The notes beneath the pieces were generated by a model that worked only from the letters and a program-made list of their open reading frames with translations, was not told where the DNA came from and searched no databases. DNA of 44,316 nt from Verrucomicrobiales bacterium. Its GTDB lineage: Bacteria; Verrucomicrobiota; Verrucomicrobiia; Limisphaerales; JAQGOV01. Below are positions 3,001-44,316 of the stretch, piece by piece. The DNA lies in contig JAQGOV010000392.1 in assembly GCA_028293425.1 (NCBI GenBank), forward strand, positions 1 through 44,316. The letters are read 5' to 3'. How positions within the stretch are numbered: the first letter of the stretch is position 1; every line of letters begins with the position of its first letter. The translations under genes were made by a program, and so were the position numbers.

Positions 3001-5330
3001 TCCAGGCCGTTTCCGTTTTGAACGAAGCTCCCAGGCAAGGACGGTCCTCCGATGTCCTGAGGATAAAAGTCCGATGCTTGCAGAACCCATTGTGAGTTTG
3101 GCACGATAATGTTGGGAGTCGTTGCTCGGTCCCTCACCCCATTCACAGTGACCAAGTAGTTGCTGCCGGAGGAGATCTTGGAGGTGGCCAGGAATACAGA
3201 CCGGTTGTCACTCTGGAGGACAGCATTGGAGATAATGATTCCTCCAATGGAATAATTCAGCACATTGGTGGCGCTCAACGCCTCCACTGGCTCGGAATAA
3301 ATAATCACCACTCGATTGGAGCCCTGGTTGAAAACGTTCGCCAACCCGGGGGGCGTCACATCAGGAGTAACCGTCAGAAGGGCGGCGGGCGAGTTGGTTG
3401 TGGCAAAGCCGTTCGACACGACGCAACGGAGCGTGGCATTATTTTCAGCCAACTTCACCACTGTATCTATGTAGGTAGCATTGGTAGCTCCGGGGATGTT
3501 GATGCCATTTTGCTGCCATTGATAGGTGACCCTCTCCAGGTTGCTGGCTGAAACAGTAAAAGTCGCGGACGTTCCTTCCATTACGCTGATGTCGGTGGGA
3601 AATTGCACCAGGTTTACAGACGCCATTCCTTCGGGCGTGAAGCGCAGAGCGGGAATTGCCTCTTCGATTGTCCCATCCGGCATTTGCCACCTCAGCCCCA
3701 AGTGGTCCGCCGGGAATCCCTCGGAGATCCCGCCTTTCGTCCACGCCTCGATATAATACTGCTGCCCCGCGGTCAGGGTAATCGGTGCGGAGCGCTGGTT
3801 TGTCTGTACTTCCCATTGATGAGTCGAAACAGACATCAGTTCGTTCACGGAGGCTATCTGCCGGATGCTGGAGGGATTATTGTTCGTACCCAGGAACAAC
3901 AGCGCCGAATTACCGGCTGCTACCCAAAAAGTATAATTGCCGGTCACCGGCGGAAGAATTCTCGCGCGGACACGTTGTCCATAATGATTGAATTGGTAGC
4001 TCGCCGTCTCGAACGGGCCGGTCAGCATTTCGGCAAAGTTCGGACTGTTGGGGAAAGCAGGACTATTGGTCAGATCAGAAATAGCGCTTCCAGGAACATT
4101 CGTATAAACCTCGCGATAGATTCCCTTCAGCAAAACCGGAAACGTCAACTGCGTGTTTGCCAGAATTGTGTTTGGCGTGGCAGCCCGATCCTTCACGTTA
4201 TTTACAGTCAGGGTGTAATTGCTCCCAACGGCGAGCGGACCGGCACTCAGTTGGACCGCTCTGGTGGAGCCTGTAGCAAATTTGGCGAAGTTCACAATGG
4301 CTCCGCCACTCAAGCCATAATTAGCCACGTTCGTACCAGACGCCGCTTCGACCGGTTCACTAAAAAGGACTTCGACCGTCCCTAAGTCGATGTTGGCGAC
4401 ACCGGAGAGCGTTGGCCTCGCCAGATCCAGCGTCACAGTCAGAGTCGCTTGGAAGCTGGTGACGGATCCGAAGGTGTTGCTTACGAGGCACCGAAAGGTC
4501 GCCCCGCTGTCACCGCTCGTTACCGAGGGAAAATTTAAACTGGCTCCGAAACCAGATGACAGATTTATGCCGTTTCGTTGCCATTGATACGTGACCGCAT
4601 CCAAGTTGGTCGTTCCGACCAGGAAGGTGACCGGGGAATTTTCTGTCACCGTCACGTTGGTCGGTTGAACGCTGAAACCCGGAACCCCAACTGCCGGCGC
4701 GCCATAAGGCTTCAACCGAGAGGCAGGTATCGGTTGCTCCAAAGTTCCATCAGGAAGTTTCCATCCCACCGCGAGCGAATCATCACCTGTTCCTGCACTA
4801 TGCAACGCCTCAATGAAATATCGCTGCCCGGCTTGAAGAAAAATATTCGTGGATTCCTGGCTGGGGTAAACATACCACGCCCGGTAAAGCGCCGTCAGGG
4901 TATTGACTGCAATTTGCCGTTTGTTCCAGGGACTCTCGTCGGTGCTCAAGGAGAGAATCCCTGCATCATCACCTTGTACCCAGAATACATACGTGCCGCT
5001 GATCGGGGGGATGAGGAGCGCTCGGAATCGGTCCCCGAATTTGTCATCGTAATTATAAGGCCCCTCAAACGCATTCGTCAGAATCTCCACGAGATTTGCG
5101 GGGCTCTGCAAAGTGGGACCATTGGTAAAACTTAACAGCGAACTGCCAGTGAGGCCGGTCCAAACTTCGCGCCGAACGCCGAAGTCCTGCGCGAAAGAAT
5201 TTCCCGTCATCCCGAACAGCACTGCGAAGGCGCAAAGCCCCTTCAACAGGACTGCGAATTTTTTCACGGTATTTCGTAGTGACGAAATGTTAGGCATAGC
5301 TGATTGAGCGGACATTTTGAAAGGCATCAT
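1..5330 (-). CDS. Giant exported CotH-kinase/lamin-tail protein, C-terminus cut by window edge
   Basis: I translated the reverse strand by hand and found one uninterrupted frame from an ATG at 5330 to position 1 (1,776 codons plus two bases), with a TAA upstream near 5351. The 5330 start gives a long leader; the ATG at 5297 gives a cleaner signal peptide (MPNISSLRNTVKKF, hydrophobic core, SFA-Q cleavage). Rough domain order from 5330: PA14-like (47-210), Ig-like (214-300), SbsA-type Ig-like (302-395), then the same trio again (397-570, 572-653, 654-747), a LamG/DUF1349-like beta-sandwich (757-930), three lamin-tail domains (about 952, 1119 and 1252; each begins like INEIMYHP and then FIELYN), a carbohydrate-binding-like part, an Ig-like part, and the start of a CotH kinase domain (ASHYAGSPAHAKLFDSPIG). 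The role is inferred as an exported surface protein carrying an atypical secretory kinase. The catalytic part lies outside the window. Confidence 0.9.
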   Translation of the reverse strand, partial: MMPFKMSAQSAMPNISSLRNTVKKFAVLLKGLCAFAVLFGMTGNSFAQDFGVRREVWTGLTGSSLLSFTNGPTLQSPANLVEILTNAFEGPYNYDDKFGDRFRALLIPPISGTYVFWVQGDDAGILSLSTDESPWNKRQIAVNTLTALYRAWYVYPSQESTNIFLQAGQRYFIEALHSAGTGDDSLAVGWKLPDGTLEQPIPASRLKPYGAPAVGVPGFSVQPTNVTVTENSPVTFLVGTTNLDAVTYQWQRNGINLSSGFGASLNFPSVTSGDSGATFRCLVSNTFGSVTSFQATLTVTLDLARPTLSGVANIDLGTVEVLFSEPVEAASGTNVANYGLSGGAIVNFAKFATGSTRAVQLSAGPLAVGSNYTLTVNNVKDRAATPNTILANTQLTFPVLLKGIYREVYTNVPGSAISDLTNSPAFPNSPNFAEMLTGPFETASYQFNHYGQRVRARILPPVTGNYTFWVAAGNSALLFLGTNNNPSSIRQIASVNELMSVSTHQWEVQTNQRSAPITLTAGQQYYIEAWTKGGISEGFPADHLGLRWQMPDGTIEEAIPALRFTPEGMASVNLVQFPTDISVMEGTSATFTVSASNLERVTYQWQQNGINIPGATNATYIDTVVKLAENNATLRCVVSNGFATTNSPAALLTVTPDVTPPGLANVFNQGSNRVVIIYSEPVEALSATNVLNYSIGGIIISNAVLQSDNRSVFLATSKISSGSNYLVTVNGVRDRATTPNIIVPNSQWVLQASDFYPQDIGGPSLPGSFVQNGNGLDITASGSGLSAAGDQMTFGYQQRRGDFDVKVRLQRLDFADTWTFAGLVAREDLTTNCQFAGVFSTPSINGTFFEYRTNGGGPQITGSFPANYPYTWLRLQRLNGQTYNGFASYDGLTWIKLGSVTETNPATMYVGLAVSSRNPARSTIAEFRDFAEAGDNDVVGNFSPQVEPLGPSSRRTGLVFTEIMYHPAPRTDAKRQEFIELYNSNPTIEDISGFRISGDVDYTFAPGTIIPGGGFLVIAKNPADIQTIYGIPSVMGPYAKSLSNKKGTVRLRNRQDAILLEVNYDSKAPWPPGPDGTGHSLVLARPSVGEDHPEAWAQSDRFGGSPGKVDGYGWEPARNVMINELLAHTDFPDVDYIELYNHSKVLVDLSGCWLTDDPATNKFRIPNGTTIAPGGFLYFTETTMGFGLSAAGEAIYLVNSNLTRVLDCLSFEAQENGVAYGRFPDGAPKFSRLAAKTPGGTNAPIRSKSLVINEIMYHPITDDDNDEFIELYNRGPGSVNLSGWRLTDGIDFTFPTNTIVASNGYLVVAKNIGRLLTNYANLNTNNTVGNYSGTLANSGERIALSMPDSITSTNLTGVITTNWIYIPVDEVLYGTGGKWGNWSDAGGSSLELIDPRSDNRLPSNWADSDDSAKSTWTSLSISGAFDNAGGSAGDWNELQFYMLDAGECLVDQVNVSITQPFLSGNIVTNSGFEAGMSFWTAIGDQRNSFIENTGFAGTKSLHVVSTGRGDVGANRIHTVLTQQYTTNGMSGTVSAQAKWLRGTPYMVFRLRGNHLEIPAVLNVPKNLGTPGARNSRFAANVGPAITEIQHTPVLPAANQPIVVSARIHDPDGVASVQVIWRVDSIGSPVNTVTMFDNGTGGDAVAGDGIYTGTIPGQANDKMLAFYVQATDGASPGLTTRFPNDAPTRECLIHIGEEQPISTFGTYRFWMTQATLNDWLQHEKFSSEDYKGTFVLGNYRVMYNAASHYAGSPAHAKLFDSPIGTNCDYQLALPADD

Positions 5331-35696: not shown

Positions 35697-37137
35697 ATGC
35701 GCAAGTTGCCAATGCTCCTTTACGTCATTCAAACACTGGCCGTGACCAGCTTCATCGCCTCGGGCCTGGCCCCAGGAAGTCTCCATTCCCGATCCCGGCC
35801 TCAACACCGCCATTCGGCAGGCTTTGCAGAAGCCGGCTGGCCCATTGACCCAGCAGGACCTGCTCACCTTAACCCACCTGAGCGCCGGGAGCCGGCAGAT
35901 CACCAATGTTGAAGGATTGGAAGCCGCTCGCAACCTACGCAACCTCGACCTAGATTCCAACTCCATCACCAATTTCTCCATCGCGGAAGCGCTCACAAAC
36001 TTGACCAACCTCGACCTGCGTTCCAATCAACTCATCACCCTCACCCTGCCCTCAGGTATGACGAACCTCGCCACCCTGTTGCTCGATGCGAATCCGCTCA
36101 ACACCCTCGTTATGCCGGCTCCGTTGGCGGAAACCAGTTTGGCTGGCACGGTTGCCACGCTGCGAAATCAAGGTGTTTCCGTGTTCACCTATCGTTTGGC
36201 GGTTCAGCTCACCCGCCTGCAATCGCCCATCGGAGCCTTTCGCTTTTCTATCACCGGGCCGCCGGGTGTTTACGCCGTGTTCGCCTCCACCAATCTCCCG
36301 GATTGGACGGTCCTCGGCGCTGTGCCCAACCCGGTCGGCACCATTACTTTCACGGACACCGAGGCCCATCTCGCTCCGCGCAAGTTATACCGCGCCCTTC
36401 TCCTCGCCCCGCCCATCACGCCTCCGGACATAGTATTCATCTCGCCCAACACCTTCACTTTGGGCAGCCCCTCCACCGAAGTCGGCCATCAACCCGATGA
36501 AAGTCCACAAACTATCGTCAAGCTCACTCATGGATTCTGGATGGCCAGGTTCCTGGTCACTCAGCGGAATTACCTCGACGTCATGGGTTCCAACCCCAGC
36601 GGTTTCCCGGGCGATCTGGATCGCCCCGTCGAAAAAGTCCCCTGGCCGGATGCCACCAACTATTACGCCAAACTTACCGAACGCGACCTCCTCGCCGGAC
36701 GAATTCCGCCGGGCAGCCATTATCGCCTGCCCACCGAAGCGGAGTGGGAATGTGCCGCGCGGGCGGGAACTTCCACGCGGTTCTATTACGGCGACGATCC
36801 CAATGTCACCAGCTTGACCAACCATGCCTGGTACAGCGCCAACAGCGGCTTTACCCCGCGCCCCGTCGGCCAGAAGCTGCCCAATGCCTGGGGACTCTAC
36901 GACATGGCGGGAAACGTTTGGGAGTGGTGTCAGGATTGGTATGGCCCCTATCCCGGCGGAACCGCCACTGATCCGCAAGGCCCCGGCCCCAATGCCATTG
37001 GTTGGAAAGTCATCCGCGGGGGTGCCTGGGAATCATTCGATTTGGACTGCCGTTCCGCCCGCCGTTCCTTCCAGGCCGCAAGTCCGTTCATCAGCGACTT
37101 CATCATCGGATTCCGCGTCGTGCTCGAACTGCCGTAA
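35697..37137 (+). pseudogene. Exported LRR + SUMF1-domain protein, split by a +1 frameshift
   Basis: A signal peptide starts at the ATG at 35697 (MRKLPMLLYVIQTLAVTSFI, then ASGLA). The body continues in another frame as QEVSIPDPGLNTAIRQAL and on to 37137. Removing one C from the CCCC run at 35770-35773 joins them exactly at the expected cleavage site (GLA-QEV). The body has four or so leucine-rich repeats (ITNVEGLEAARNLRNLDLDS, LTNLTNLDLRSNQL), a short beta module ending KLYRALLLAP, and a SUMF1 domain (IVFISPNTFTLGS, YRLPTEAEWECAARAGTST, GLYDMAGNVWEWCQDWYG, IRGGAWESF, IGFRVVLELP). The formylglycine enzyme's paired cysteines are absent, so it is a SUMF1-fold protein, not a sulfatase activator. 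The frameshift could be a sequencing error; if real, the exported product is lost. Confidence 0.8.
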
Positions 37138-37892: not shown

Positions 37893-38228
37893 AAGTGCGT
37901 CCGGGCTTCATCCCTTCTGTCACAAACTTATCGCTTTGCTTCCCGGTGTCGAGCCCTCGTAGACGGCACATCGATCCTTGGAACATGGAGACTTGAAACT
38001 ATTTTTTGCATCGCCCTCTGCCCTGTGTCATCGGTCCTCAAACTCGTCATTCCCTCATTCCGGTTTCGTCATTCATCTTTTTTGAAATCTGAAATTTCAG
38101 ATTTGGGATCACCCTCACTTCTCCCACTGCGCGACCGTTGCAGGCCAAAATATTATATCTCCTGTCCATGGCTACTTTTGTAAAAAAAGAATGTCCGATT
38201 TCCTTCCGGGCGCACATTAATAGAGCAG
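37893..38228. promoter_or_regulatory. Upstream region of sigma-RCC1 gene, with 20-bp perfect palindrome
   Basis: About 335 bases. It holds the second copy of the intergenic repeat (about 38056-38077) and a perfect 20-base palindrome at 38085-38104 (AAATCTGAAA/TTTCAGATTT) about 125 bases before the sigma start. The palindrome is a plausible dimer-binding site, including one for autoregulation, but it could equally be part of the dispersed repeat. No clear -35/-10 is visible. Confidence 0.45.
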
Positions 38229-40163
38229 ATGGCTGAAGCGGACGATTTTGAATTGCTGACCGACTATGCGAACCGGGGATCGGAGAGCGCATTCACCATT
38301 CTTACCAAACGTTATATCCATCTGGTTTATTCGGCCGCACTCCGGCAGGTCCACAACCCTCACCTTGCCGAGGAGGTCACTCAGGCAGTTTTTATTATCC
38401 TCGTCAAGAAGGCGCATACCTTTCGGCACGGGGTTATCCTCTCCGGTTGGCTCCTGCGCGCCACGCGTTTCACCGCCTCCAACCTCCTCACAAGTCAATC
38501 CCGTCGTCTCCAGCGCGAACAACAGGCTGCTCACATGGAACCTGCCGCTTCCGAATCCGCTTGGGAACAGATTGCTCCTTTTTTGGACGCCGCCATGGCT
38601 CAGCTGGGCGACAAGGATCGTGACGCGCTGGCGCTCCGTTTCTTTGACCAAAAACCGCTCAAAGAGGTCGGGCTGATCCTTGGTATTGACGAGGATACGG
38701 CCCGCAAACGCGTCTCCCGCGCGGTCGATAAATTGCGCCAGATCTTCCTCAAGCGGGGCGTGACCTTGTCGGCGCTAACCATCATGGGCGTGCTGGCGAC
38801 TAATGCCGTTCAGGCAGCTCCTGCGGCCATCGTCGGTTCGGTGGCCGCAGCCGGGTTTCTCAACGCTACAGTCTCCTCCTCAGCCCTGATCAAGACCACT
38901 GTCAAAATGATGGCATGGGCGAATTTTAAATGCTTAGTGCTGACCGCCTCCCTATCGCTTCTACTCACCATCACCGTCACCGCGACCGTTGCGGCGTTCC
39001 AGCTTTTTGGGCAGACCAGTGCCGCCACCATTCCTGGCGGCCGACTCCGGCTGCCCATCGGGACAAATACTCCCGCCATTGCCATGGGTTCAGCCCACGG
39101 GGTAATTCTGGCCTCGGACGGCAGCCTCTGGACTTGGGGACAGAACCTTCGAGGCTGGCCCGTGCTCGGGTTGGGAGAGATCAATACCCAGAGGTTCCTC
39201 CGCCGCATTGGCAACGAAAACGATTGGGTAGACGTAGCGAGTTCTCCTACTCACGTCATGGCTGTCAAATCCGACGGGACCTTATGGGGATGGGGAGCAA
39301 ACTCGGAGTATGAATTGGGTGACGGCACGGATTCACCACGCAAGCAGCCAGTCCCCTCTGAGCCAGGCAACGATTGGAAGCAGGTGGCGGCGGGTGGCAC
39401 CCACACGCTCGCGCTCACAAGATCGGGAACACTTTGGGCCTGGGGCAACAATTGGGCCGGGCAATTAGGGATCGGCACACGAAAATTGAGTCCAGAAGCG
39501 GTCCAGGTGGGATCCAACAGCAATTGGGTCAAAGTCTGGTCGCAGGGGATCCAAACGGTCGGCTTGCAGTCCGACGGCAGCCTTTGGTTCTGGGGCTCGC
39601 TCACAGGAGGAGCCAAAGATACCCATCGATTCTTCGTGCCGACACGTGTCTCACCGGATACCAACTGGGTGGATGCCTGTTTTGGTTATTTTTGTGTGCT
39701 GGCCATCAAGGCGGACGGCACGTTGTGGGCCTGGGGCCGCAACGCAGGAATATACACGGACGCACCGATCGAACTCGTGAACCCATCCCCGGTTCGCGTG
39801 GGAAACGAGAGCGACTGGAAAGCCTGTGCTTCCACGGAATACTTTTATCACTTACTGACGAAAAAGGATGGTTCCCTCTGGGCCTTGGACGCCTCGGACC
39901 ATTCCAAGGGACTTAAAACGCCTAAACCCGCCGAATTCAGGAAGATCAACTTGCGAAAGGAGATCGTTGCCTTTGGCACCACAGGCCGAGACGGCATGGG
40001 AGCCGCCCTGACACGGGACGGCGAAGTATGGACATGGGGAGCGGTTTTGGGGGAATACAAACCAGTTCGCCCCAATGCGAAGGACATCGTCTACGAACCC
40101 GTCCTTCGTAAGGAACCTTGGCTGCTCCCGAACATCCCTCCTTCTCAACCATCCCTTCAGTAA
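38229..40163 (+). CDS. ECF sigma factor fused to membrane segment and RCC1 propeller
   Basis: This 644-residue protein is about 3.5 times the length of an ordinary ECF sigma. Region 2 is at about 8-95 (SAFTILTKRYIHLVYSAALR, HLAEEVTQAVFIILVKKA, LSGWLLRATRFTASN). Region 4 is at about 115-172 (ALALRFFDQKPLKEVGLILG, IDEDTARKRVSRAVDKLR). Then comes a weak hydrophobic stretch (178-212), a strong membrane helix (about 233-258, FKCLVLTASLSLLLTITVTA), and seven repeats of the type DGxLWxWG (about 297, 349, 398, 449, 496, 547 and 597), enough for one complete RCC1 propeller. The sigma part must be cytoplasmic. With one membrane helix the propeller would be outside; with two it would be inside. No anti-sigma gene is adjacent. 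The propeller probably regulates the sigma domain (inference). Confidence 0.93.
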   Translation: MAEADDFELLTDYANRGSESAFTILTKRYIHLVYSAALRQVHNPHLAEEVTQAVFIILVKKAHTFRHGVILSGWLLRATRFTASNLLTSQSRRLQREQQAAHMEPAASESAWEQIAPFLDAAMAQLGDKDRDALALRFFDQKPLKEVGLILGIDEDTARKRVSRAVDKLRQIFLKRGVTLSALTIMGVLATNAVQAAPAAIVGSVAAAGFLNATVSSSALIKTTVKMMAWANFKCLVLTASLSLLLTITVTATVAAFQLFGQTSAATIPGGRLRLPIGTNTPAIAMGSAHGVILASDGSLWTWGQNLRGWPVLGLGEINTQRFLRRIGNENDWVDVASSPTHVMAVKSDGTLWGWGANSEYELGDGTDSPRKQPVPSEPGNDWKQVAAGGTHTLALTRSGTLWAWGNNWAGQLGIGTRKLSPEAVQVGSNSNWVKVWSQGIQTVGLQSDGSLWFWGSLTGGAKDTHRFFVPTRVSPDTNWVDACFGYFCVLAIKADGTLWAWGRNAGIYTDAPIELVNPSPVRVGNESDWKACASTEYFYHLLTKKDGSLWALDASDHSKGLKTPKPAEFRKINLRKEIVAFGTTGRDGMGAALTRDGEVWTWGAVLGEYKPVRPNAKDIVYEPVLRKEPWLLPNIPPSQPSLQ

Positions 40164-40529: not shown

Positions 40530-43208
40530 TTATTTTGCTAATCGATAAAATTTATTGCCGCTGGCTCCGCTGTTGGTCATGAAATGCTTACTTCCAATAA
40601 GGATGGGAGCTCCCAACACATTCGACCAGGCGATCGATGGAGTGAGGTTCGTTTTGAATTGCAGCGTGTAGCCGGTGTCACTCACGGGCCATGAAAGCAC
40701 CACCTGGTTCGCTGAGCGCGCGACATTTAATATAGGCAGGTTCAACTCAAAAGCCCCGATGTCGCTGCCATCACCACCCGCAGCATTGCCGATGCCCGCG
40801 AAGTCATACGGCCGCAGCCGCCCGCGCTGGTCGGTAACGAGCCCAAAGCGGTTGCCCTTGTCAATGGCCGGGCTGTTGGCTGACAAACTCATGGTCGGAG
40901 TTGGGCCGCCATTATCAGCCAGTGGAGCGAGCAATGGATCAATGGGCGAAGCTTGAATGCCTGCCTGATCATGATTGACCCCATTCGCAAAGCCGCTGCT
41001 GCCATCCTGAATCCCGATGAGGTTATACCCATGCGTGGTAAAGGATCCGCCGAGATCGGGTGAGACGCCTGCGGTATTGCCCGCCACAATGCTGTCGCCG
41101 AACGTGCCCACACTGGCGACGCCATAAATTCCGCCGCCCGCGCCCCCCGCGCCATTGCCGTCCAAGTTGGCGGTATTGCCGGAAATGGTGCAGCCGATGG
41201 CATCGAATGCCGCGACGCTATAATAGACTCCGCCTCCGTAGCCATTGGCTGTGTTGTTGGCCAACGTTGAAACGCTTTTTGAGACTGTGCCGGCGACAGA
41301 TGCCAGACCGCCGCCAAACCCGGTGCCAGTAAGTCCTTCGCCACCCGTCCCCGTGCCGTGCGCCCCGAAGCTGGCGGTGTTCGAACTGATCGTGCTGGCG
41401 ATAATTACCATGTTACTCTCATTGTAAATGCCACCACCCAAGCCATTGCCGCCGGTCCCGGGAACACCAGTGCCGCCATTACCACCAAGCCCCCCGTTAA
41501 CGGAGTTGTCGTGAATATAACAACTGCTCAGTGACAGCGTGTTGAAGTTGGCAAGGCCCCCGCCTGCACCCGAGCCGCCATGTCCAGCACTCGAACCACC
41601 TTTGCCCCCGAAAACGGTATTGTTGAAAACTTCACATGCGGAAAGGCTCAGCACGCCATAGTTGAGGATGCCAGCACCTGCATTGTCCCGGCCCCGCTGC
41701 CCGCTCGCAGCGGATCCACCACTCACAAGTCCATTGCGAATGCCAAGCCCGGAGATATGCACAGTGACATTGGTAATATTAAATACCCGGCTCGAAGTAT
41801 TGCCACTGATGGCGAGAACCGCTGCGCCGGGACCGATGATGCTTAGATCTTTGTTCAGCAGCAATTCACCGGTGGTCAGGATAATGGTGCCAGTGAGACC
41901 GGGAGCGAACGTGATCACATTTCCCGGCGCGGCGCTCAGCACAGCCTGACGCAGCGAGCCGGGGCCGCTGTCCGCCGTATTGAGCACGATAATCGGATTA
42001 ATTTCATAAGCGCCGATGTCCACATGAGCGCCAAATTTTCGCGCATACCCGCGTTGATCCGTGAGCAGGTTATATGGAGCGTTCGTCACTGCGTCATCGC
42101 CGGCATCAATCGCCGCGCTATTCGGCAACAATGCCATGGTGTAAGTTGGGCCGCCGTTGTTTTGCAAGGACCCGAGCAAGGGATCAAATGGGGCGGCAAT
42201 TGTGCCAGTGAGATCACTGCCGACCCAACCGCTGCTGCCATCGGTGTTGCCAATGAAATTGTGGCCTTGGCTGCTCACGGGTCCATTTACGTCCGGGCCA
42301 AGTACAGCACCTCTGATCCCGCTGGTGAGACTGTTATTCGCGATGATTACATTGCGGTAATTGCCACTGCCGGCGTCAAATACTCCACCACCTTGTGCAT
42401 TACCTCCATTGTACGAGTCAACGGCCACCCCACCAATGGCGGAGTTTTGGCTGAACGTGCAGTTGACGAGGTAGAGGGCGCTTTCATTTGCGATGGCACC
42501 ACCCATTCCGTTTCCTCCACCGCCCAAGGCGAGCCCCATGGACAGCCCTCCGAGCCCTCCGTTTGCAGTGTTATCGCTAAACGTGCAATTGGCGATATTC
42601 AGGGTGCCCTGATTCGCTATAGCGCCGCCCCGTCCATCGCCTCCAATCCACCCGGGGTCGGCGGAACGGGCGCTCGTTCCAGAGCGATCGTCGGGGCCAT
42701 CCCCGCCTGCCGCCGAATTGCTCCAGAGTGCACAACTATCCAGATTGAGTGTGCCTTGGTTGAGAATGCCTCCTCCTTGCCCATCGCCACTGGCCGCGTT
42801 TGGCGGAGCCCCCGTTGTGCCGACCACATGGCCATTGATGATGGTAAGCCTCGAAATATTGACTGTGCCAGCCGTTATGTTGAACACCCGGCTGGCATTG
42901 TTGCCGCTGACCGTGATGCCGCCTGCTGGACCTATAATCGTCAGGTTTCGTCCAATCCCAAGCTCGCCATTGGTTAGCGTGATGGTGCCAGTGACGGAGA
43001 AATTGATCGTGTCGCCGTTTGCAGAAGCATTGACAAACGTCCGCAACGTGCCCGCCCCGCCATCGTCAGCCGTACTGGTGACGGTGCGCGTTGTGGCAGC
43101 GTGTGCGTGGTCCGCGAACACCGCGAGGCAAAGCAGCGCCAGCGCGATCAAAAAAGAAAACGAAGCGGGCGCGAAAGCTCTCCCGATGCCTGTGCCTTGG
43201 CTTTCCAT
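40530..43208 (-). CDS. Exported beta-helix protein with two choice-of-anchor Q segments
   Basis: The ATG at 43208 (MESQGTGIGRAFAPASFSFLIALALLCLAVFADHAHA) gives a signal peptide at the N-terminus; the frame also has an ATG at 43295, which would add 29 residues. The protein is about 892 residues. It opens TVTSTADDGGAGTLRTFVNAS, then carries many polymorphic-membrane-protein-type repeats (GGGILNQGTLNLDSCALWSN, GGAIANQGTLNIANCTFSDN, GGGLANFNTLSLSSCYIHDN) that predict a right-handed beta-helix. Two choice-of-anchor Q-like segments end NGGPTYTMALLPNSAAIDAG and NGGPTPTMSLSANSPAIDKG. A tail NQVVLSWPVSDTGYTLQFKT...KFYRLAK closes it. A surface adhesin- or autotransporter-like role is inferred. Its last ~115 codons are nearly identical to the next gene's. 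Confidence 0.9.
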   Translation of the reverse strand: MESQGTGIGRAFAPASFSFLIALALLCLAVFADHAHAATTRTVTSTADDGGAGTLRTFVNASANGDTINFSVTGTITLTNGELGIGRNLTIIGPAGGITVSGNNASRVFNITAGTVNISRLTIINGHVVGTTGAPPNAASGDGQGGGILNQGTLNLDSCALWSNSAAGGDGPDDRSGTSARSADPGWIGGDGRGGAIANQGTLNIANCTFSDNTANGGLGGLSMGLALGGGGNGMGGAIANESALYLVNCTFSQNSAIGGVAVDSYNGGNAQGGGVFDAGSGNYRNVIIANNSLTSGIRGAVLGPDVNGPVSSQGHNFIGNTDGSSGWVGSDLTGTIAAPFDPLLGSLQNNGGPTYTMALLPNSAAIDAGDDAVTNAPYNLLTDQRGYARKFGAHVDIGAYEINPIIVLNTADSGPGSLRQAVLSAAPGNVITFAPGLTGTIILTTGELLLNKDLSIIGPGAAVLAISGNTSSRVFNITNVTVHISGLGIRNGLVSGGSAASGQRGRDNAGAGILNYGVLSLSACEVFNNTVFGGKGGSSAGHGGSGAGGGLANFNTLSLSSCYIHDNSVNGGLGGNGGTGVPGTGGNGLGGGIYNESNMVIIASTISSNTASFGAHGTGTGGEGLTGTGFGGGLASVAGTVSKSVSTLANNTANGYGGGVYYSVAAFDAIGCTISGNTANLDGNGAGGAGGGIYGVASVGTFGDSIVAGNTAGVSPDLGGSFTTHGYNLIGIQDGSSGFANGVNHDQAGIQASPIDPLLAPLADNGGPTPTMSLSANSPAIDKGNRFGLVTDQRGRLRPYDFAGIGNAAGGDGSDIGAFELNLPILNVARSANQVVLSWPVSDTGYTLQFKTNLTPSIAWSNVLGAPILIGSKHFMTNSGASGNKFYRLAK
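40531..40875 (-). repeat. 345-bp direct repeat, copy 1 (3' end of first beta-helix gene)
   Basis: This segment aligns without gaps to 43329-43673 (offset 2,798), with about 12 mismatches that I counted, roughly 96-97% identity. It encodes the last choice-of-anchor Q motif and the C-terminal tail. Similarity drops sharply upstream, where the two proteins are only family-level alike. Confidence 0.9.
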
Positions 43209-43327
43209 AGGGTTTTTGATTCGGATGGCCAAAGTAGTCCTGTCGGATCCCGCCAGGGCAAAGCGATGCCGCATTGGTATCACGCTGGCCTTCATTTCAC
43301 AAGCGAATTTGCCCAGTCAGGCATCTC

Positions 43328-44316
43328 CTATTTTGCCAGCCGATAAAATTTATTGCCGCTGGCTCCGCTGTTGGTCATGAAATGCTTACTCCCAATAAGG
43401 ATGGGAGCTCCCAACACATTCGACCAGGCGATCGATAAAGTGAGGTTCGTTTTGAATTGCAGCGTGTAGCCGGTGTCACTCACGGGCCATGAGAGCACCA
43501 CCTGGTTCGCTGAGCGCGCGACATTTAATATAGGCAGGTTCAACTCAAACGCTCCGATGTCGCTGCCATCACCACCCGCAGCATTGCCGATGCCCGCGAA
43601 ATCATACGGCCGCAGCTGCCCGCGCTGGTCGGTGACGAGCCCAAAGCGGTTGCCCTTGTCAATGGCCGGGCTGCCGGTCAGTAGCGCCATGGTCGGCGTG
43701 AGCCCGCCGTTGGAGGCGAGCGACCCGAGCAAGGGATTGAGCGGCGAAGCCTGGGTGCCCGCCTGGTCATGGTTCACGCCGTTGGCAAACCCGCTGCTGC
43801 CATCAATGGCGCCGATCAGGTTGTAACCCGCCGTGGTAAACGCGCCAGCCACATCCGGTGAGGCAAAGGCCGTATTGCCGGCGATGAGGGTGTCGCGGAT
43901 CTGGCCATTGCCGTTGACACCGCCACCGCTGGCGTCGCCGCTGTTGCCGGAGATGGTGGCGTTGTAAATCACCAGCGTGCCCTGGCTGAAGATGCCGCCA
44001 CCACCGCCGGTCGAGCCGTTGCCGTTGACAATGTTGTTGGCGATGGTGGAAGTGTAGAGGGTTGCGTTTCCCGTTGGATTTGCGAGACCGCCCCCGCTCG
44101 CAGCGCCGGGAATGCTCTCGCCCAAGCCGCCCGTGCCGCCCGAGCCATAGGTGGTGCTATTGGCGTCCAGCGTGCACGCGCTGAGCACCAGGCTGTTCAC
44201 GTTGTAAATACCACCGCCCGATCCCACACCACCCGGGCCCGAGGCTTGGTTGCCGCTCGCGTTCCCGCCGTGGCCGCCGACAACGAAATTACCCCGGACC
44301 GCGCAATTGGTCAGCG
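43328..44316 (-). CDS. Beta-helix protein paralogue, N-terminus cut by window edge
   Basis: The frame is open to the right edge (29 more codons beyond the internal GTG at 44227, with no stop), so the N-terminus is missing. The visible ~329 residues carry the same repeats as the neighbouring gene (GGGIYNVNSLVLSACTLDAN, GGGIFSQGTLVIYNATISGN), a choice-of-anchor Q segment (NPLLGSLASNGGLTPTMALL, SPAIDKGNRFG) and the tail ending KFYRLAK. It lies upstream of the first beta-helix gene in the same direction, with 32 bases to that gene's longest open frame, and is a tandem paralogue. Its last 345 bases are nearly the same as that gene's, suggesting recent duplication or gene conversion. Confidence 0.88.
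   Translation of the reverse strand, partial: LTNCAVRGNFVVGGHGGNASGNQASGPGGVGSGGGIYNVNSLVLSACTLDANSTTYGSGGTGGLGESIPGAASGGGLANPTGNATLYTSTIANNIVNGNGSTGGGGGIFSQGTLVIYNATISGNSGDASGGGVNGNGQIRDTLIAGNTAFASPDVAGAFTTAGYNLIGAIDGSSGFANGVNHDQAGTQASPLNPLLGSLASNGGLTPTMALLTGSPAIDKGNRFGLVTDQRGQLRPYDFAGIGNAAGGDGSDIGAFELNLPILNVARSANQVVLSWPVSDTGYTLQFKTNLTLSIAWSNVLGAPILIGSKHFMTNSGASGNKFYRLAK
43329..43673 (-). repeat. 345-bp direct repeat, copy 2 (3' end of second beta-helix gene)
   Basis: This copy pairs with 40531-40875. Mismatches are scattered and mostly silent (for example in SNVLGAPILIG the encoded residues are the same), as expected for protein-level selection or recent conversion. Confidence 0.9.

Follow-up and report, generated by a model that had tools for sequence, protein, structure and literature searches.

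The gene and its domains

The window, as we call the whole stretch of 44,316 nucleotides that was analysed, carries a gene in which an ECF sigma factor, a hydrophobic linker, a predicted membrane helix and an RCC1-type propeller follow one another in a single reading frame (Table 1). Both sigma regions were matched above the curated Pfam cut-offs (Sigma70_r2, E 2.6e-10; Sigma70_r4, E 4.6e-10), the TIGR02937 model for ECF sigma70 factors gave 67 bits against a cut-off of 42.9, and solved ECF sigmas were matched by phmmer, e.g. 6in7_B with E 4e-10. Only sigma2 and sigma4 were present and the helix-turn-helix was intact, as expected of a group 4 (ECF) sigma factor.

Table 1 Features of the sigma-RCC1 fusion gene and its promoter in the window
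Feature	Position	Strand	Details
-35-like element AATGTCCGATTTC	38190..38202	+	family-promoter PWM; score 24, best in the window
-10-like element CGGGCGCACATTA	38207..38219	+	9 nt before ATG; two-block model, PWM
Sigma-RCC1 fusion gene (ECF sigma - AAP linker - TM - RCC1 propeller)	38229..40163	+	644 aa from ATG
Sigma region 2	38307..38507	+	residues 27-93; Pfam; residues 78, 85 and 88 covary with -10 bases
Sigma region 4	38592..38741	+	residues 122-171; Pfam
R159-K160 in sigma4 recognition helix, -35 specificity residues of the family	38703..38708	+	covariation
Conserved hydrophobic linker ending in AAP	38757..38822	+	residues 177-198; family conservation
Predicted single TM helix, N-in/C-out	38931..38999	+	residues 235-257; dG, flank charges, sigma-less homologues
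Seven-bladed RCC1-type propeller	39075..40124	+	residues 283-632; AlphaFold, Foldseek

The C-terminal part matched the RCC1-like WD40_RLD model with E 7.4e-48, above the curated Pfam cut-off, and seven motifs started at residues 297, 349, 399, 449, 496, 547 and 597 with a spacing of 47-52 residues, the sixth being degenerate (DGSLWALD). In the AlphaFold model, which was built with nine homologues and had the sigma domains and the blades at good confidence, the propeller residues formed 28 strands, mostly at pLDDT 80-96. Foldseek returned UVR8 chains as the top matches (4dnv_B, E 3.7e-26, TM-score 0.80 on the target), followed by RPGR, HERC2 and RCC1. The seven four-stranded blades with DGxxWxWG-type repeats are those of the RCC1 propeller family. 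A preliminary description of this DNA had recognized sigma regions 2 and 4 and a complete seven-blade RCC1 propeller, and both held up, the former in Pfam, TIGR02937 and AlphaFold and the latter in the strand count and the likeness to UVR8.

The neighbours of the fusion gene encode a PNPOx-like protein, an FGE-sulfatase/LRR protein and one protein without a Pfam match. When the neighbouring ORFs were scanned with Pfam, no adjoining anti-sigma gene of the canonical ECF kind was found, as had been described earlier. At 35824-37134 (+) of the window, leucine-rich repeats are fused to an FGE-sulfatase-like domain, and two adjoining surface-type proteins at 40530-43295 and 43328-44314 (both -) have near-identical C-terminal stretches of more than 100 residues in their translations, which suggests a recent duplication or gene conversion.

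Orthologues of the fusion

Full-length orthologues were found in seven other Verrucomicrobia genomes, six of them (L031-L036) from named Verrucomicrobia records and the seventh (L059) from an order-wide search, in which the fusion was present in 5 of 245 genomes, one of them that of the window. An evenly sampled search of the whole phylum gave no further fused match at the strict cut-off, while the sampling of the order did give some. Compared with the window protein, the two parts of the sigma core were 45-58% identical and the two propeller halves 39-60%. The neighbour genes differed between genomes, conserved synteny among the orthologues was looked for and was absent, and no anti-sigma was found among the scanned neighbours. 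Because full-length orthologues exist in other genomes, the fusion is neither a chance product nor a misassembly. The preliminary description had placed sigma, membrane helix and propeller in one protein, had proposed to look for the same architecture in Verrucomicrobia genomes and had feared an in-frame misassembly, and the seven genomes settled these points in its favour.

It had also considered that the sigma and RCC1 parts might turn out to be separate genes in homologues, and here the outcome was mixed: the propeller does occur without a sigma factor, in other genomes as a membrane protein and in one copy in this genome, but true fused orthologues coexist with it. The sigma-less copy in this genome (L002/L052, G000:C403:2441-3739, -) retains a portion of the linker together with TM and propeller at 66% identity, has no family promoter (see below) and showed a dN/dS of about 0.15 against the window gene (dN 0.22, dS 1.47), that is, purifying selection on the propeller.

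A family with one linker and many C-termini

A model of sigma, AAP linker and TM gave 17 matches in the window's genome, which was the per-genome maximum, and two of the 17 were pieces of one frameshifted copy. This copy (L053, G000:C677, about 4259-5145, -) is a close and recently decayed paralogue of the window gene, with a 79% identical sigma, a frameshift after sigma residue 129, a truncated propeller and an almost identical promoter. Order-wide, the family was found in 31 of 58 genomes, and at a stricter cut-off in 18 of 195 genomes across the phylum, the window's own included. Besides the sigma core, the AAP of the linker was the best-conserved feature (P198 in 91, A197 in 85 and A196 in 79 of 93 members). 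All 41 full-length members that were scanned kept sigma2 and sigma4, and their C-termini varied between CarboxypepD_reg, DUF3738, HEAT, RCC1, TPR, AhpC/TSA, secretin-like and no known domain; several of these domain types are typically exported. The preliminary description was right about the fusion, but it overlooked the many paralogues, the exchangeable C-termini and the shared, apparently self-read promoter. Family members also stand side by side in tandem at L131 (G403:C202), L101 (G411:C47), L129 (G401:C3), L035 and L054 (G000:C665).

A promoter element upstream of the family genes

A dyad, TGTC-N13-GGCG, occurred in 23 of 92 upstream regions of the family, where shuffled regions gave at most 7 for any dyad. 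With a two-block model, 88 of 93 family genes had the element; its distance to the start was usually 7-18 nt, and the spacing was 4 or 5 in 86. When the model was refitted by EM from random starts, the median score rose up to 22 for the real upstream regions, against 8 for shuffles and 9 for further-upstream DNA. The promoter of the window gene reads AATGTCCGATTTC-CTTC-CGGGCGCACATTA at 38190-38219, and -35 elements of the TGTC type are known from ECF41 sigma factors (PMC3426412). The PWM did not find the element before the sigma-less propeller genes. At L075 and L099 (G411:C53, C42), some 130 nt separate the promoter from the inferred start of the family gene, and a short ORF (MTRIKMKI...) lies in this gap.

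Match between sigma and promoter

Among 72 sigma cores with less than 75% identity, the strongest covariation of -35 positions 5-8 was with residues 160 and 159, both in the sigma4 recognition helix; for -10 positions 6-9 it was with sigma2 residues 88, 85, 49 and 78. All 65 cases of K160 went with C, and all 18 of M160 or V160 with T, G or A; at residue 159, R went mostly with CGG, K mostly with ACC and Q mostly with GGA or CGA. With 35 representatives (60% identity cut) the covariation persisted; a cut at 55% preserved it in part, and with 13 representatives it faded. Seven genes of the phylum outside the model-building set had the element in place and obeyed the -35 code, 7 of 7. Since the promoter is physically linked to the sigma core, shared descent adds to this signal, but the position-specific match (-35 with sigma4, -10 with sigma2) and the held-out genes indicate that it is not shared descent alone.

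ECF (group 4) sigma factors read bipartite promoters, often their own. In this family a bipartite promoter before the own gene was seen statistically, in the element and its covariation, and the promoter in place, the covariation and the held-out genes together argue that each family sigma very probably reads its own promoter. As the promoter before the window gene fits its own sigma, positive autoregulation of this gene is strongly supported at the level of sequence.

Targets were sought genome-wide by pattern matching, in a genome that is 88% complete. The specific promoter pattern had one exact copy in the window's genome, before the window gene itself, and a one-mismatch copy before the decayed paralogue. 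Across 58 genomes, 33 of 108 matches lay just upstream of family genes, and the remaining 75 compared with 62 for a reversed-pattern control; as the non-family matches are near the control level, the pattern gave no downstream target beyond the family genes in these genomes and no visible output beyond the gene itself. Strong matches that did not precede intact family genes lay, at the loci examined, mostly within other genes or before broken family genes. At L184 (G402), a family-promoter-like site near 1499 (+, score 18.4) is followed after 21 nt by an ORF whose 491-aa product is apparently secreted, a possible non-family target.

Exchange of C-terminal domains

In the propeller tree, the six fused orthologues L031-L036 formed one clade with support 98/98, whereas in the sigma tree the same six were scattered among members with other C-termini, and forcing their sigma cores into a clade was rejected (dlnL 131, AU p 1.5e-80). 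Linker residues 199-232 tracked the propeller (95% between L036 and L031, for example), and the sigma core did not, that of L036 sharing 67-81% with L068 and L072 but only 52-62% with L035 or L031. Propellers that form a clade on sigma cores that do not mean that modules were exchanged near the AAP linker, and the behaviour of residues 199-232 puts the breakpoint near residues 177-198; the comparison of sequences thus strongly supports exchange of C-terminal domains between sigma cores at this point. The RCC1 fusion L035 and its tandem neighbour share 92% of linker residues 199-232 with sigma cores only about 50% identical, which fits recombination between neighbours.

Membrane topology and mechanism

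The best hydrophobic segment of the window protein was residues 235-257 with a dG of about -0.8 (-0.76; values are approximate, the coefficients having been checked on one known TM), in agreement with the strong helix described earlier at about 233-258. Some coiled-coil members of the family had a second hydrophobic segment that was only weakly hydrophobic. In 59 of 93 members the net positive charge was higher before the TM than after it; in 22 the two sides were equal, and 12 had the lower charge before it. AlphaFold gave the linker and TM region (200-272) pLDDT of only about 20-40, so the TM assignment rests on hydropathy and comparison; when the sigma, linker and TM part was modelled alone, helices appeared at 182-191, 199-212 and 220-260, which are only suggestive because pLDDT was about 30-40 from residue 200 on. 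Nine sigma-less relatives of the same propeller (L002, L060-L067, of which three loci also have named-record copies, L037-L039) have a short, mostly basic N-terminus and then one TM. Such stand-alone propellers would lie outside, which favours N-in/C-out for the fusion. The propeller is therefore probably outside the cell membrane on a single predicted span, a placement favoured by hydropathy, charge flanks and, above all, the sigma-less homologues, and the one that the preliminary description had put first.

We think it rather likely that the gene encodes a one-protein transmembrane ECF sigma, a self-amplifying switch that carries its propeller sensor outside and works without a separate anti-sigma. 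The cytoplasmic sigma2-sigma4 core would be joined through the AAP linker and one membrane helix to the extracytoplasmic propeller, which would most likely sense a ligand or partner outside, and the tether would keep the sigma scarce or inactive. Once the propeller receives a signal, regulated proteolysis may act on the exposed linker or TM, or the conformation may change, and the sigma set free in this way would transcribe its own gene and perhaps further genes. The window's genome contains an M50 (site-2 protease) gene, which is not specific evidence for proteolysis; to our knowledge, M50 genes are nearly universal.

The tethered sigma might instead act at the membrane uncut, by analogy with the membrane-bound regulators ToxR and CadC, with the propeller controlling it by dimerisation or conformation. 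This would suit a protein with a conserved linker and no evident protease site, and propeller ectodomains can work via partner binding, but a sigma has to engage core RNA polymerase and leave it after initiation, which a tether would hinder, and we regard this course as unlikely. To a similar degree we doubt that the gene serves to make its C-terminal domain, with a sigma that mainly expresses its own gene, in a self-promoting cassette whose regulon has a single member. The exact promoter copy only at the own gene and the near copy before a decayed paralogue would fit such a cassette, as would non-family matches near the control level, swapped C-terminal domains, and decayed and tandem copies; however, diverged targets would escape a strict pattern in a genome that is 88% complete, and the sigma2 and sigma4 of all 41 members were kept, although a cassette also permits that.

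The remaining readings concern the stretch before the TM. The preliminary description had allowed that a weak stretch at 178-212 also spans the membrane, which would leave the propeller inside the cell. The stretch at 173-194 has moderate hydrophobicity and basic residues in front of it, but its dG was about +1.2 (+1.16), the first segment fell below 0.5 in just 1 of 93 members, lysines between the segments would need translocation and a single TM precedes the propeller in the nine sigma-less relatives, most of which have a basic N-terminus, so a double span is disfavoured and appears quite improbable. The hardly more attractive idea that NAVQA|AP is an internal signal-peptidase site, at which the protein is always cut in two, starts from the resemblance of KRG, a hydrophobic stretch and AVQA-AP to the end of a signal peptide and from A or S at -1 in 82 of 93 members; against it, 11 of 93 have V, T or L there, the most conserved residue is the P at +2, unneeded by signal peptidase, and the TM after the cut would bring the propeller inside. 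Misassembly or a pseudogene, which the fragmented assembly (750 contigs) and the frameshifted relative on C677 might bring to mind, was rejected as having next to no chance in view of the full-length orthologues in seven other genomes, the purifying selection on the propeller and the intact promoter.

Relation to known systems and significance

CRINKLY4-family plant receptor kinases have an RCC1-like ectodomain. These kinases (PMC4617170) resemble the predicted layout of the window protein, by analogy only, in a propeller outside a single TM and a signalling domain inside, and differ in that this domain is a plant kinase and not a sigma.

Among ECF sigma factors, fused membrane domains are already known in a few groups. 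ECF48, ECF52 and ECF53 of Actinobacteria (e.g. SCO4117) likewise combine, within a single protein, a sigma2-sigma4 core with a C-terminal extension made up of TM and outer domain, and proteolysis was proposed for them, but they have an anti-sigma segment of zinc-finger (ZAS-like) type alongside the TM, and their outer domains are different (PMC8999054); no such segment is present in the window protein, where residues 172-232 are without Cys or His. ECF57, from the related phylum Planctomycetes, is also a sigma fused to propeller-type repeats, but these are WD40 with a conserved Cys pair, and regulation by protein interaction was proposed (PMC8999054), whereas Pfam repeats and the fold search made the extension of the window protein RCC1-type. 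IutY (ECF243) is a one-protein transmembrane sigma activated via Prc and RseP cleavage, but its outer part is anti-sigma-derived, belongs to a cell-surface signalling system and has no propeller (PMC8999054). ECF41 shares a C-terminal extension, a TGTC-type -35 element and few targets, but has a soluble SnoaL-like domain, no TM and the promoter TGTCACA-N16-CGTC (PMC3426412); neither that domain nor that promoter was found in the window gene. Of the systems described so far, ECF48/52/53, ECF57 and IutY come closest, and the fusion is set apart from them in that it has an RCC1 propeller and no zinc-finger anti-sigma segment. No RCC1 propeller was found among ECF sigmas in the literature searched, and the AAP family was not found there either, a search whose reach ended short of the main classification (10.1093/nar/gkaa1229).

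More tentatively than the switch itself, we propose a lineage-wide repertoire in which each unit combines a self-read promoter, a sigma and an interchangeable outer domain, the gene itself is the chief or sole target, and sensors are redistributed among sigma cores by recombination near the AAP linker, so that a single domain swap would create a new signal-to-promoter circuit. If this is true, Verrucomicrobia would have a sensor repertoire in which input domain, sigma specificity and promoter can all be read from the sequence, and the simple -35 code would make regulons predictable and provide candidate orthogonal sigma-promoter pairs.
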